A stretch of 64,000 nt of DNA from Anaerolineales bacterium. GTDB lineage: Bacteria > Chloroflexota > Anaerolineae > Anaerolineales > UBA4823. The notes under the pieces were generated by a model, which saw only the letters and a program-made list of their open reading frames with translations, did no database searches and was not told the DNA's origin. The stretch covers positions 1-64,000 of the forward strand of contig JAGUYW010000002.1 of NCBI GenBank assembly GCA_020061105.1. Reading direction: 5' to 3'. Shown one piece after another: positions 53,068 to 59,439 of the stretch. The first letter of the stretch is position 1; every line of letters begins with the position of its first letter. The position numbers and the translations under genes are program-made.

Positions 53068-53337
53068 GTATGGGGGTGGGTATGGGGTTATAATTAACTT
53101 CAAAATTTGACCAATCTACCGGATTCCAAGCGCCTGAGTCATGCTAGGACCTGGTTACCAGGTCTACCAGGCGTCGTTTTTGTGGTATTATTCACAAACC
53201 ATCTTCGAGTAAACGCTGCACAGGCGCGACGCTTCTGATTCGATGCGTTATCCCTGCCAAGTAATACCATCAAAGATCGAAAAAAGGACCGCCTATTTCC
53301 AAAAGAACGACCCGTTCGATCAATCGATAACAATTTT

Positions 53338-53456
53338 TTCTCCGAGCCAGCCAGCCTAAAGTGTTCACCATGGTTGAGCGGCCGCTCAAGGGCAGGGATG
53401 GAAACGTCCTTACCTCCCGAATCCCGGCGCATGCCGGGAGGAATTGGAAAGGAGAA
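53338..53456 (+). promoter_or_regulatory. Probable molybdenum-cofactor (Moco RNA motif) riboswitch aptamer
   Basis: P1 TTCTCC...GGAGAA; conserved-looking CTCCGAGCC...GAGCGGCCGCTCAAGGGCAGGGATGGAAACGTCC...CCTCCCG..CGGGAGGAATTGGAAAGGAG; upstream of FmdE/MoeA cassette. Confidence 0.78.
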
Positions 53457-53474
53457 CAGTGACAGATCGATTCT

Positions 53475-53505
53475 GCTCGCCTGTTTCCTTCCTGGCGAGT
53501 TTTTT
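53475..53505 (+). terminator. Intrinsic terminator downstream of the riboswitch
   Basis: CTCGCC-TGTTTCCTTCCT-GGCGAG-TTTTTT. Confidence 0.78.
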
Positions 53506-53518
53506 GTTCGACCAGGAA

Positions 53519-54043
53519 GTGAACCAAAAACTATTCATCATCACCGGCCCAATCGGCGCCGGTAAAACCAGCTGGTGCCTGCAGTTGATCCGTGAAGCGC
53601 AGGCCAGCGGGTTGCTCCCTTGCGGGCTGGTCTCGCCGGCGGTCTTCGAAGCGGGCGCCAAAACCGGCATCGACCTGGTGGATGTGTCGTCGGGTGAAAG
53701 GCGCCGCCTGGCGGTGCGGCGCGCCGCCCAAGAAACCGAGGCGCCTGCTGGTCTGGCTACCCAATCCTGGCGCTTCGACGAGTCGGTGGTGACCTGGGGC
53801 AACCAGGCTCTCAGCCAATTGCAAAACCCCCGCCTGCTAATTCTCGACGAACTCGGCCCTCTGGAGCTTTTGGAGCAAGCCGGGTTGGTCGCCGGCCTGA
53901 AAGTCATCGACAGCCGCCACTATGACCTGGCTTGCGTGGTGATCCGCCCCAGCCTGCTGCCCACCGCCCTGAAACGCTGGCCGTGGGCAGAAACCCTATC
54001 TATCCCCACCCTCCACACAGCTTACGCGGAGCGGGAAGCATGA
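53519..54043 (+). CDS. THEP1-like nucleoside-triphosphatase (P-loop)
   Basis: LFIITGPIGAGKTSWCLQLIREA; RLLILDELGPLELL; start uncertain (TTG 53444 in ORF track, GTG 53519 likely). Confidence 0.8.
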   Translation: MNQKLFIITGPIGAGKTSWCLQLIREAQASGLLPCGLVSPAVFEAGAKTGIDLVDVSSGERRRLAVRRAAQETEAPAGLATQSWRFDESVVTWGNQALSQLQNPRLLILDELGPLELLEQAGLVAGLKVIDSRHYDLACVVIRPSLLPTALKRWPWAETLSIPTLHTAYAEREA

Positions 54044-55515
54044 TCCACATCCGCGACCTCAACGTTCATTACGGCGACATCCCGGCCCTGCAGGATATCT
54101 CGCTGCAGGTTGCCCCCGGCGAGTGCCTGCTGGTGACTGGGCCTTCTGGCTGCGGCAAGAGCACCCTGGGACGCGTCCTGGGCGGGTTGATCCCGCATGC
54201 TATTCCGGCTCAGCTCACCGGCCAGGTGGAAGTCGCCGGATTATCCCTGCAGTCGCATTCCATCCCCGAGATCGCCCAGAAGGTCGGGATGGTCTTCCAG
54301 CGCCCGGCCTCCCAGCTTTTTCATTTGCATGTCGAAGACGAAGTCGCTTTCGGCCCGCGCAACCTGGGGCTGGAGGAAGAAGAAGTCAGCCAGCGCGTCG
54401 AATGGGCTTTGCAAACTACCGGCCTGGTTCCCCTGCGCCAGGCCAGGCCCTCCCAGCTCTCCGGCGGGCAGAAGCAGTGCCTGGCGATCGCCGCCGCCCT
54501 GGCCATGCGCCCCCAGGTGTTGGTGCTGGATGAACCCACCGCCTCCCTGGACGTGCCCAACACCCGGCGGGTGATCGACACCCTGACAAATTTACGCGCC
54601 GAACACGGCGTCACAATTATCCTCATCGAACACCGTCTGGCAGAAGCCGCCCAGTTGGCCAACCGGGTGGTGATCATGGAAGCCGGTCGCATCGTCGCCA
54701 GCGGCCCGCCCCAGGATGTATTTGCCGATCGAGCGCTGCGCGAGCGCCTGGGCCTGCGCCGCCCGACCGAAGAACCCTCCATCTCCTGGAGTTCGCTGAT
54801 CCGGCGCAACGGCTCCGGCCAGCCAACCGAGCAGCCCTTGCTTTCCTTCGAAGCCGTTTCTGCCGGTTTCAACGGCCATGCTGTCATTCACGAGATCGAT
54901 CTGCAGCTCTACCCGGGCGAATTTACCGCCCTGGTGGGCGATAACGGCGCCGGTAAGTCCACCCTGGCCATGGTAGCTGCCGGACTGATCAAGCCGCAAA
55001 GCGGCCGGCTGCGCTTTCTCGACGGTGTGCGGCCTCGCCCCGGCCTGGATGTGGCCTTGCTCTTTCAAGACCCGCAAGAGCAGTTGTTTACCGACTCGGT
55101 GGATGAAGAAGTGGCCTTTGGGGCAGAAAACTACGACGCTTTCGACCCAGATACCCATCGCCGCATCCTGCAAGAAGCCGACTTGTTGGAGCTGCGCCAG
55201 CGCCGCCCGCAAGTCCTCTCCGTAGGCCAGCAGCAGCGCACCGCCCTGGCGTCCTGCCTCAGCTTGCGCCCGCGCCTGCTGATCCTGGACGAGCCGACCC
55301 TGGGACAGGATTGGGGTCACCTGCAACGCCTGATGGATTACCTGCGCCTGCTGAACCAGATGGGAACCACCATTTTGCTGATCTCTCACGACTATAAATT
55401 GGTGCATCACTATGCTCACCGCGTCATCCTGCTGAAAGACGGGCGCATCGAGCAGATTGGAAAAATCGATCACTCACCTCAATTGGAGGCTACTTATGAA
55501 ACTCTCAACGCGTGA
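54040..55515 (+). CDS. ECF transporter duplicated ATPase (EcfA-EcfA')
   Basis: Two ABC domains: [16 protein letters not shown] / [17 protein letters not shown] and [17 protein letters not shown] / [21 protein letters not shown] overlap with upstream gene. Confidence 0.92.
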
Positions 55516-56104
55516 ACTGGCGACCCTGGCTGTTTTCGGGGCTTTATGGGGGCTGGTCGAAGCCAGCTTGGGTTCGGTGCTCAAATCGCTGAATATCCCG
55601 CTCAGCGGCGTCTTCCTGGCCGCCATCGGGCTGATCATCGCCCTGGTAGGCCGGGTGTTCGTGCCCAAACGCGGTTCGACGCTCTTCATCGGCGTGCTGG
55701 CAACCCTGATCAAGCTATTCAGCCTGGGCGGCGTCATCATCGGCCCGATGGTTGGCATCCTGACCGAAGCCATCCTGGCGGAAATTGTGCTCTCGCTGGC
55801 CGGAAAGCCGCGCCGTCCGGCCCTGGTGCTGGCCGGGGCGCTGGGCGTGGCCTGGGTCATGCTGCAGCCCTTCGTCACCGGGCCGCTGCTGTTTGGGCGC
55901 ACGGCCTTCGTGGTCTGGCTAGATTTGCTCGATCGCGGCAGCCAGCTGCTCGGCCTGGATGTCACCGCAGCCATCTGGATCGTGCTGGCGCTGCTCGCCA
56001 TCCACCTGGCGATCGGCGGGCTGGCAGGCTGGTTTAGCTGGGATATCGCCCGCTTGCTGCAGGCGCGCCAGGGCAGATCCATCCCTCAAACACTCGAATC
56101 ATAA
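55496..56104 (+). CDS. Putative ECF substrate-binding (S) component, membrane protein
   Basis: About six TM segments; [54 protein letters not shown]; located between EcfA- and EcfT-like genes; RBS TTGGAGG. Confidence 0.75.
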   Translation: MKLSTRELATLAVFGALWGLVEASLGSVLKSLNIPLSGVFLAAIGLIIALVGRVFVPKRGSTLFIGVLATLIKLFSLGGVIIGPMVGILTEAILAEIVLSLAGKPRRPALVLAGALGVAWVMLQPFVTGPLLFGRTAFVVWLDLLDRGSQLLGLDVTAAIWIVLALLAIHLAIGGLAGWFSWDIARLLQARQGRSIPQTLES

Positions 56105-56183: not shown

Positions 56184-56636
56184 TTGAAACACATTTCAAA
56201 ACTCCTCCTGATCTTCATCGCCATCTCCCTGGCAGCTTGCAGCGCTGCCAGCCAGCCGGCTGCCTTTGAGCCAGGATCAACTTTACTGGTTTCGGGTGGC
56301 GAAATCAAAAAATCCTACAGCCGCGCCGACCTGGAAGCCCTGCCTGCCAGCCAGGCCGATTTCCTGGACGTGACTTACCGCGGGGTTGTGCTGTCGGTCT
56401 TACTCCAGGACGCCGGTTTCGATCCGCAGCAGGTCAAAGCCGTCAAAGCCGTCGCCAACGATGGCTTCACGGTCAATTATGACCCTGCCCAGTTCTTACG
56501 CCCAGATTTTCTGGTAGCCTACGCCCAGGCCAACGGGGAACTGACCGACAAAGACGGCCTTTTCCGGATTGTGCTGCCGGGGGCGGAGGGCAAGCAGAAT
56601 GTGCGCATGTTGGTCGAAGTACAAGTGATCCAATAA
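56184..56636 (+). CDS. Lipoprotein with molybdopterin-oxidoreductase-like (Oxidored_molyb-like) domain
   Basis: Lipobox ISLAAC; SRADLEALPASQADFLDVTYRGVVLSVLLQDAGFDPQQVKAVKAVANDGFTVNYDPAQFLRPDFLVAYAQANGELTDKDG...RMLVEVQVIQ. Confidence 0.72.
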   Translation: MKHISKLLLIFIAISLAACSAASQPAAFEPGSTLLVSGGEIKKSYSRADLEALPASQADFLDVTYRGVVLSVLLQDAGFDPQQVKAVKAVANDGFTVNYDPAQFLRPDFLVAYAQANGELTDKDGLFRIVLPGAEGKQNVRMLVEVQVIQ

Positions 56637-57367
56637 TGGCGACCCACAGCCTTTCGCAAAGCATTTCCCAACCTCGTCCGGCGCCCAGGCTGGGCATGCT
56701 GGGCTACCTGGCGATCTTTGCCGCCTCGCTGGCGGCGGTGATGGCAGTTCCCCCCAGGGTTTTGCCGTGGAGCGCCGGGTTGTGTTTGCTGGTGGCGGCG
56801 CTGGTGTACCCGAGCGCCTTTCGCCGCCTGATGCGCCTGCGTTGGCTGGTGATGATCGCTCTCTTGGCGCTGCCGGCGGTCTTTTTCGTGGGAGAGGTCG
56901 ATCGCAGCCTGGCAGGCATCCCAGTCTCGTCGGAGGGGCTGCAAACCGGCTTCCAGATCGTGGTGCGGATTGTGGTGGTCTTGATCGCCGTCGATGGCCT
57001 GACCTCCTCGGTGGATATCGCCTCGGTAGCCGGGCTGCTCGAGAAGGCCGGCCTGCACGGGCTGGGTTTTTCGATCGGGGTGGCGCTCAACCTGCTGCCA
57101 TCTTTGCAGCAATCGGCCTTGAATGCCTGGCGCAGCCTGTGGATGCGCGGCGGCTTGAGAAAGCGGCGCTGGCGCAGCCTGACCTTCCTGTCCGTGACGA
57201 TCGTCTCCAACGCCCTGAGCCGCGCCGAAGAAATCGCCCTGGCGGCGGAGGCGCGCGCCTTTTCTCCGCAGCGCGCCCGCCGCCTGCCGGTCGTGACCGG
57301 GCGCTTCGATCCGCTCGTCCTGGTTGTGTCTTTGATCGCGATCGTGGTCGCGATAATGATCGTGTAG
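56636..57367 (+). CDS. ECF transporter transmembrane component EcfT (CbiQ-like)
   Basis: TM-rich, conserved coupling region SLWMRGGLRKRRWRSLTFLSVTIVSNALSRAEEIALAAEARAF. Confidence 0.87.
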   Translation: MATHSLSQSISQPRPAPRLGMLGYLAIFAASLAAVMAVPPRVLPWSAGLCLLVAALVYPSAFRRLMRLRWLVMIALLALPAVFFVGEVDRSLAGIPVSSEGLQTGFQIVVRIVVVLIAVDGLTSSVDIASVAGLLEKAGLHGLGFSIGVALNLLPSLQQSALNAWRSLWMRGGLRKRRWRSLTFLSVTIVSNALSRAEEIALAAEARAFSPQRARRLPVVTGRFDPLVLVVSLIAIVVAIMIV

Positions 57368-57476: not shown

Positions 57477-58166
57477 ATGGAAGATTTAGCCAAATTCTTA
57501 CAACTTTGCGCTGCCCGCTATCCGCATCTCTGCCCGCGCCAGGTGCTTGGAATACGTATCGCTATGTTGGCCGGAAAGATTCTCAACCTGGATCTACCGC
57601 AAACCGGTAAACGCTTGTTTGCCTTCATGGAATGCGACGGGTGCGGCATGGGCGGCGTGGCCGTTGCCAGCGGTTGCGCGGTGGAACACCGCACCATGCG
57701 GGTCTTGGATTATGGTAAGCTGGCAGCGACCTTTGTCGATACCCAAACCGGGCAATGCGTGCGCATCCGGCCTCACCCGGGTTGCCGCCAGGCTGCCGAA
57801 GAGCTTTTTCCCGCCGAGCCATCCCGCTGGCACAGCCAGCTGCGAGGTTACCAGGCGCTGCCCGACGAGACCTTGCTGATCGTCCAACCCGTAGCGCTGA
57901 ACATCTCGATAAAGAAAATCATCAGCCAACCCGGCCTGCGGGCGCTGTGCGAGTGCTGTGGTGAAGAAATCAGCAACCAGCGCGAGATCACCTGGAACGG
58001 GCATACCCTGTGCCGCTCCTGCGCCGGGGATAAATATTACTGCCCCATAGCCGGGGAGGCCGGTTCAAACATCAAGAATACCAGGCTGCCGGTGGTGGGG
58101 CGAACTTCGAATTCAGCCGTGAATTTACGTCGCCGATTTTCGCCTCGTATGCTGCAAAGGGAGTAA
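57477..58166 (+). CDS. FmdE-family protein (formylmethanofuran dehydrogenase subunit E-like)
   Basis: HLCPRQVLGIRIAMLAGKIL; AFMECDGCGMGGVAVASGCAVEHRTMRVLDYGKLAATFVDT; C-terminal zinc ribbon CECCGEEI...CRSCAGDKYYCPI. Confidence 0.9.
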   Translation: MEDLAKFLQLCAARYPHLCPRQVLGIRIAMLAGKILNLDLPQTGKRLFAFMECDGCGMGGVAVASGCAVEHRTMRVLDYGKLAATFVDTQTGQCVRIRPHPGCRQAAEELFPAEPSRWHSQLRGYQALPDETLLIVQPVALNISIKKIISQPGLRALCECCGEEISNQREITWNGHTLCRSCAGDKYYCPIAGEAGSNIKNTRLPVVGRTSNSAVNLRRRFSPRMLQRE

Positions 58167-58239: not shown

Positions 58240-59439
58240 ATGATCTCATTCGAAAAAGCCTACCACTTATCGTTAGAAAATGTCCAAACCCTGGAGACAG
58301 AACTTGTCGGCCTAGTTGCTGCAGTCGGGCGATTACCTTCCATCGATCTACTGGCGTCGGTCGATTCCCCTTCGGTGGACGCCTCGCTGAAAGATGGCTA
58401 CGCCGTTCACTCAGACGACATTCATGACGCCCGCCCTGACCATCCGGTCGCCCTGCGCCTTGTTGGCGTGGCAGAAGCCGGCGGAAGCTGGCAGGGCGAA
58501 CTGCAGCACGGAGAAGCCTTGCGGATTCTGAGCGGCGCCCCACTCCCCACCGGCGCAGACGCCATCCTCACCGAAGAATTAGCCACCGAGCAAGCCGGCC
58601 AGGTCATCGCCACCGGCGACGCCCATGTCGGGCGGAATATTATCGCCAGGGCCAGCGATGTCCGGAAAGGGCAGGTGCTGGCTGCGGCGGGAGAGAAATT
58701 GCTGCCCAGTAAAGTAGGACTCTTAGCAGCCGGTGGCCTCGACATCGTGCCCGTCATCCGCCAGCCCCGGGTGGCAATCATCGCCACCGGCGACGAAGTG
58801 ATCTTTCCCGGGCAACCCTTGAAAATGGGCGGTCTGTACGCCAGCAATCTGGTAACCCTGGCAGCCTGGTGCGCCTGGTTCGGTTTTTCGGTCGAAACTT
58901 ACCTGGTTGGCGATGTGGAGAAGAACATCCGCGCTCAACTTCAACAATCCATCATCGAACACGATGTCATTCTGACCAGCGGCGGGGCCTGGAAGGGGGA
59001 GAAAGACCTGACTGTGCGCACGCTGGATGAGATGGGATGGCAAAAAATCTACCATCGCGTCAAAATGGGACCCGGAAAGGCGATTGGCTTCGGGATATTC
59101 CAGAACAAACCGGTCTTTTGCCTGCCTGGAGGCCCGCCCTCCAACCATATGGCCTTTCTGCAGCTGGCGCTCCCTGCCTTGCAAAAAATGGCCGGCTTCA
59201 AGCAGCCCGGCTTAGCGCATATCACCGCCAGGCTCTCTGAAACCATCAGCGGGCAAGTCGATTGGACGCAGTTCATCCATGGAAAATTGGTGGAACGCGA
59301 TGGGACAAAATGTTTTTACGCCCGCCAGCCTGCCAGCCGACTGCAAATGATCGCCCACACCGAAGCGCTCGCCATGATCCCTGAAGGCCAGGTCGAAATT
59401 CGCAAAGACAGCCTGGTTCAGGTGCAGGTCTTGATCTGA
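58240..59439 (+). CDS. moeA: Molybdopterin molybdenumtransferase
   Basis: DASLKDGYAVHSDD, LRILSGAPLPTGADAILTEE, VAIIATGDEVIFPGQPL, VILTSGGAWKGEKD, CLPGGPPSNHMAF. Confidence 0.93.
   Translation: MISFEKAYHLSLENVQTLETELVGLVAAVGRLPSIDLLASVDSPSVDASLKDGYAVHSDDIHDARPDHPVALRLVGVAEAGGSWQGELQHGEALRILSGAPLPTGADAILTEELATEQAGQVIATGDAHVGRNIIARASDVRKGQVLAAAGEKLLPSKVGLLAAGGLDIVPVIRQPRVAIIATGDEVIFPGQPLKMGGLYASNLVTLAAWCAWFGFSVETYLVGDVEKNIRAQLQQSIIEHDVILTSGGAWKGEKDLTVRTLDEMGWQKIYHRVKMGPGKAIGFGIFQNKPVFCLPGGPPSNHMAFLQLALPALQKMAGFKQPGLAHITARLSETISGQVDWTQFIHGKLVERDGTKCFYARQPASRLQMIAHTEALAMIPEGQVEIRKDSLVQVQVLI

Follow-up and report, generated by a model that had tools for sequence, protein, structure and literature searches.

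In the window, the 64-kb stretch of Anaerolineales DNA analysed here, the sole Rfam match (cmscan) was the molybdenum/tungsten riboswitch RF01055, located ahead of genes that together would constitute an energy-coupling-factor (ECF) importer operon with late Mo/W-cofactor functions, controlled by a Moco-family riboswitch from which the P3 stem has apparently been lost. The features of the locus are as follows:

53328..53470 (+), RF01055 Molybdenum/Tungsten riboswitch (cmscan and our own covariance model)
53338..53343 (+), P1 5' strand TTCTCC, pairing with GGAGAA at 53451-53456
53346..53356 (+), P2 5' strand, pairing with 53372-53382; three consecutive mid-stem mismatches
53383..53389 (+), residual P2-P4 linker CGCTCAA, P3 absent (P2 ends at 53382, P4 starts at 53390)
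53390..53415 (+), P4 with GAAA tetraloop (Rfam match, covariation, folding)
53416-53417 with 53446-53447 (+), P5, CC paired with GG (Rfam match, folding)
53422..53439 (+), hairpin TCCCGGC-GCAT-GCCGGGA in the P5 loop (pairing probability 0.94-1.00)
53446..53459 (+), GGAAAGGAGAACAG: P1 3' strand, candidate Shine-Dalgarno and 5' half of a candidate antiterminator
53476..53505 (+), candidate intrinsic terminator, CTCGCC-12 nt-GGCGAG then TTTTTT (custom search)
53459..54043 (+), NTPase_1 (THEP1-like); start GTG 53459 (in frame with the P-loop) or GTG 53522
54040..55515 (+), fused EcfA-EcfA' (TIGR04520, 369 bits, cutoff 315; TIGR04521, 360 bits, cutoff 330)
55496..56104 (+), ECF S component without a Pfam family; predicted fold like YkoE/RibU
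56184..56636 (+), lipoprotein with a partial PF00174 (sulfite-oxidase) domain and PruR-like fold
56636..57367 (+), EcfT (PF02361)
57477..58166 (+), FmdE family protein with C4 zinc finger
58240..59439 (+), MoeA, molybdopterin molybdenumtransferase family

The RF01055 match was full length (model positions 1-135; 64.6 bits against a gathering threshold of 36; E = 3.1e-13). As a regex-based riboswitch classifier missed most members, a covariance model was built instead from relatives within the class, under which the window aptamer scored 88.4 bits; one seed row of this model was the window sequence with its P5-loop insert shortened by hand, and the unaltered sequence was used for all counts. 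Among 20 operon-linked riboswitches, 90.6% of pair cells were standard and two-sided changes occurred in 19 of 29 pairs, with comparable values across 107 riboswitches of the class (90.0%; 21 of 29). None of 500 shuffles reached the observed scores and slid structures collapsed, so that P1, P2, P4 and P5 are all supported by covariation, and every invariant core position of P1, P4 and P5 is retained in the window. The GNRA tetraloop on P4 is GAAA (53401-53404), its receptor in P2 is CCTAA...ATGG, and the operon itself supplies the link to Mo/W-cofactor genes through MoeA and FmdE. The initial annotation, which had proposed a Moco-family aptamer and a cmscan check against RF01055, was thus borne out by both the Rfam match and the covariation in relatives, the two results whose absence it had named as counter-evidence. 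The closing stem that it quoted (TTCTCC/GGAGAA) is P1, and its GAAA hairpin (AGGGATGGAAACGTCCTT, within about 53394-53411) is P4, a genuine part of the family. The element is certainly an ordinary RF01055 member, with an unusual deletion of P3.

On P3 itself that annotation was mistaken. It had read CCTCCCG (53413-53419) and CGGGAGG (53435-53441, with GAATTGGAAAGGAG next) as a P3-type hairpin spanning 53413-53441, and had taken the presence of P3 to indicate Moco rather than Tuco. These sequences exist, but P3 is positioned between P2 and the GAAA-capped P4 (Regulski 2008, PMC2408646), where the window has only 7 nt, and the hairpin therefore is not P3. It falls inside the variable P5 loop, with CCTCCC forming part of the conserved junction of P4 and P5, and the predicted base-pair probability of CCTCCCG with CGGGAGG was 0.00; the presence of P3 was rejected on the combined evidence of Rfam alignment, linker length and pairing probabilities. 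Among the 107 class riboswitches, the P2-P4 linker was 4-5 nt in 51 (mostly CGATA-like) and 8 nt in one, while in the remaining 55 it measured at least 19 nt, held one or two hairpins and often ended in CAA. The window's linker lies outside both groups: it carries no hairpin between P2 and P4, as in P3-lacking members, yet CGCTCAA is not of the CGATA type and its CAA end resembles that of many P3-bearing members. A two-hairpin version of P3 (GGACCCTGAGC...CTCAGGGGACAC...GTGTCGT) recurs in the class (L161, L231, L146, L193, L184) and was not found in the accessible portion of the 2008 paper.

All 14 other chloroflexotal riboswitches ahead of the same operon have P3, with linkers of 20-69 nt, one of the 14 (L097) being detected only with our own covariance model. 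In a tree of EcfAA' and S, the window falls within a seven-row clade (100/99) whose four riboswitch-bearing relatives (L097-L100) all have P3. Because the window is nested among P3-bearing sequences, P3 was probably lost on its own branch, unless the assembly is wrong, and the locus looks like a P3 deletion within a P3-bearing lineage. The riboswitch of the closest relative (L097:1042-1233) has neither the GAAA tetraloop nor the P2 receptor, and the operon is retained there. Elsewhere, P3-less and P3-bearing Moco riboswitches occur in tandem ahead of one operon (L171:5987-6404) or on the same contig (L151, L212).

The loss of P3 bears on which cofactor is sensed, since Regulski 2008 (PMC2408646) linked P3-lacking RNAs to Tuco. 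Tuco sensing by the window copy would also fit the three AOR genes of its genome (three AFOR_N matches), a tungsten-type gene content. Against this, the window's linker departs from the CGATA type seen in almost every P3-less member of the class, its orthologues carry P3, and among the 107 class riboswitches tungstate-transporter-like and moa/molybdoenzyme contexts could not be told apart by whether P3 was present. Genes resembling tupA/B (assigned from NCBIfam, with TupA-like scores below the equivalog cutoff) lay downstream of 15 of 52 P3-less and 13 of 55 P3-bearing riboswitches, and moaA/C downstream of 16 and 20, respectively, both about equal. What did differ was FmdE, found downstream of no P3-less and nine P3-bearing riboswitches, and EcfAA, downstream of 14 P3-less and three P3-bearing ones. 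Prediction of tungsten genes from P3 was therefore not supported for this class, the stem by itself is a poor indicator of the metal here, and the Moco/Tuco rule is not decisive for this locus; we regard Tuco sensing as a tenable but less probable account of the window copy. As a P3-deleted member of a P3-bearing orthologous set, it offers a natural test of the role of P3 in Moco/Tuco specificity, a question open since 2008.

It is quite unlikely that the stem is missing through an artefact of assembly or deletion, or that the aptamer is decaying and non-functional. Such a reading draws on a draft MAG source that is about 54% complete, on a perfect 16-nt palindrome (TTGAGCGGCCGCTCAA, 53374-53389) across the gap, on mismatches in P2, as a decaying copy might have, and on the relative L097, which lacks the loop and receptor; nevertheless, the invariant core of P1, P4 and P5 is kept in full at 88 bits. 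The palindrome takes in the 3' strand of P2 together with the linker that lacks P3, and can form a competing hairpin with a probability of about 0.2.

The sequence downstream of the aptamer offers two candidate routes to gene control. A terminator scan with a loop limit of 8 nt returned none on the forward strand, and the candidate at 53476-53505 was recovered by custom search. In the ligand-free minimum-energy fold, GGAAAGGAGAACAG, which contains the P1 3' strand, pairs with CTGTTTCCTTCC, and this pairing excludes the CTCGCC...GGCGAG-TTTTTT terminator. Terminators 3' of the aptamer were present in most of the 21 relatives tested, and the antiterminator outperformed shuffles in several (L074, L086, L231, L065); that of the window was weakly better than shuffles (p = 0.09). 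As GGAG precedes GTG 53459, a start in frame with the NTPase P-loop, masking of the Shine-Dalgarno by P1 is also possible, and both routes predict OFF with ligand. With cofactor plentiful, the aptamer would fold, P1 would close and the GGAAAGGAG strand would be sequestered, allowing the downstream terminator to form and masking the Shine-Dalgarno as well; with cofactor scarce, the released P1 strand would pair with the 5' side of the terminator and the operon would be transcribed. From this arrangement we infer the direction of switching, and consider the element likely to be an OFF switch. The riboswitch resembles the Moco RNAs of Regulski 2008 in its P1, P2, P4 and P5, its GAAA tetraloop and receptor, its Moco-gene context, a Shine-Dalgarno overlapping P1 and, as in some reported examples, a downstream terminator. 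It differs in the hairpin inserted in the P5 loop, in the deletion of P3 from an otherwise P3-bearing lineage, and in its control of an ECF importer operon, a context of which no description was found. From the putative Tuco variant, which shares the absence of P3 and would suit a genome with tungsten-type AOR genes, it is set apart by its CGCTCAA linker.

The operon brings together two ECF ATPase domains, EcfT and an S component, the full complement of an ECF transporter. Like the YkoE and RibU systems, it has fused ATPases scoring above curated cutoffs, EcfT and an S component of matching predicted fold; unlike them, the S component belongs to no Pfam or NCBIfam family and is linked to Mo/W-cofactor genes. 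Its AlphaFold model (pLDDT 88) matched the ECF S components 5edl (best), which we take to be the thiamine-related YkoE, and 5kbw, in structural comparisons with weak E-values. The lipoprotein model (pLDDT 86) matched the PruR pterin-binding proteins 7kom, 7kos and 7rkb as well as the sulfite-oxidase Moco domain, and the Mo-ligating Cys was absent from all 10 aligned members, leaving the lipobox Cys as the only one. It is thus PruR-like in its predicted model: secreted, about 150 residues long, and of sulfite-oxidase fold without the molybdenum-ligating Cys, as reported for PruR (PMC13259868). It differs in being a lipoprotein beside an ECF importer, whereas PruR is found beside the DcpA regulator.

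The S component was detected in 36 of 298 class genomes, 29 of which have RF01055, compared to 98 of the 262 genomes without S (p = 1e-6). Besides the window, the riboswitch stands ahead of this ECF operon in a further 14 chloroflexotal genomes, a Bacillota MAG and a WOR-3 MAG, with weak matches in Calditrichota and 'bin522'. Gene order varied, from riboswitch-NTPase-EcfAA'-S-lipoprotein-EcfT-MobB-MobA (L062) to riboswitch-MoeA-MobB-MobA-EcfAA'-S-lipoprotein-EcfT (L074), and an FmdE-MobB fusion occurred within the operon of L099. In L072, which is without a riboswitch, XdhC and a MOT1 molybdate transporter gene adjoin the ECF genes. Beyond the phylum, a P3-less riboswitch (83.8 bits) stands in front of EcfA-S-T-NTPase in the WOR-3 MAG (L129), with a TonB-dependent receptor next in line, weak riboswitches precede MobA and S in Calditrichota (L127, also with a TonB receptor) and 'bin522' (L128), and a TonB receptor lies upstream of S in Proteobacteria (L138); TonB-dependent receptors adjoin S in three other phyla. 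A near-complete operon with a 64%-identical S component was found in a MAG labelled Actinomycetales (L131), reflecting either transfer or mis-binning. Riboswitch-free ECF operons (L069, L072, L073, L082, L083, L092) have a PadR-like gene, recognised by eye, directly upstream of EcfAA', and this regulator perhaps substitutes for the riboswitch.

The window's genome encodes MoaC, MoaE and MoeA and can therefore make the cofactor, so that uptake would do no more than add to what it makes; for this organism, strict MPT auxotrophy is rejected. PF00384 enzymes were present in G298, G305, G302 and G304 and in the class members G100, G075 and G043, and MoaC, MoaE and MoeA gave no match in these seven genomes, absences that MAG incompleteness inflates. 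Formate dehydrogenase alpha exceeded the equivalog cutoff in G298 (WOR-3) and G305, and G100, G075 and G043 carry 8-11 AORs each. Two further genomes were discarded as clear cases, the strongest Mo-type enzyme of G300 best matching QrcB, a molybdopterin-binding-like subunit, and that of G307 being NuoG. A second family of ECF systems is found under riboswitches without P3; its S component (PF09819) is fused to PF00174, and in L096 the system is accompanied by a nucleotide-pyrophosphatase-family protein, TupBC, TupA-PF00174 and MoaA. TupA-like tungstate-binding proteins fused to PF00174 were observed at L233:2983-4344 and L096:2934-4220. Within the class, the second ECF family was encoded by seven of the eight genomes lacking MoaC and five of the 52 with it (p = 1.5e-5, relatedness ignored; the 60 genomes were selected on the presence of the S component or of the riboswitch). 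Those seven genomes represent six families, in four of which a MoaC-bearing relative is without the second ECF system. Incompleteness can yield single absences, but hardly this association.

From the operon content, predicted folds and genome correlations, we infer the ligand and the transport substrate, and give modest preference to a P3-lost RF01055 riboswitch, OFF with cofactor, that heads an ECF importer most likely of a Mo/W-pterin (Moco, Tuco or a direct precursor). The recurrence of MobA, MobB, MoeA, XdhC and MOT1 as neighbours argues for such import, and the TonB receptors together with the MoaC-absence association favour an organic Mo/W-pterin over a bare oxyanion. Free Moco is unstable, which speaks against its import as such. 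According to a published account, moreover, the PruR site probably has too little room for Moco (PMC13259868).

Import of molybdate or tungstate by the same riboswitch-controlled system is kept alive by the depletion of ModA and the TupA-PF00174 fusions, although we judge it unlikely. ModA was above cutoff in two of 33 S-component genomes, compared to nine of 27 riboswitch-bearing controls (p = 0.009), a depletion that would suit metal uptake by the ECF system; the PF00174 domain is fused to tungstate-binding proteins in L096 and L233, MOT1 stands beside the ECF genes of L072, and MoeA is within the operon. Conversely, the predicted fold of the S component resembles that of vitamin S components, the lipoprotein is of the pterin-binding type, and TonB receptors, found in three phyla, are unexpected for small oxyanions. 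Genomes with Mo/W enzymes and without MoaC, MoaE and MoeA would, moreover, gain nothing from metal alone. Import of another small molecule, such as a simple pterin or thiamine-like vitamin with an indirect link to Moco, is improbable: PruR proteins bind simple reduced pterins (PMC13259868) and the best fold match of the S component is 5edl, presumably YkoE, yet the riboswitch is found repeatedly, and in different phyla, with MoeA, MobA, MobB, FmdE and XdhC as partners.

Overall, the Mo/W-pterin importer that we favour is a credible and testable candidate for Mo/W-cofactor uptake. Neither an ECF-Moco link nor a bacterial Moco importer was found in the part of the open literature covered, and the novelty of the context is provisional to that extent. 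Cells are generally thought to be self-sufficient makers of the cofactor, with C. elegans the known exception, and the route of pterins across bacterial membranes is unknown (PMC9793310, PMC13259868). It is an evenly balanced proposition that riboswitch-controlled ECF operons with a PruR-like lipoprotein, with TonB receptors added in relatives belonging to other phyla, are bacterial importers of the Mo/W cofactor or a metal-pterin precursor, and allow some lineages to run molybdo- and tungstoenzymes with no molybdopterin synthesis of their own. A Moco/Tuco riboswitch ahead of an ECF importer, in genomes seemingly unable to build molybdopterin, provides concrete genes for tests of cofactor sharing and, if the proposition is true, the Mo/W cofactor would, like vitamin B12, be a metabolite that is traded.
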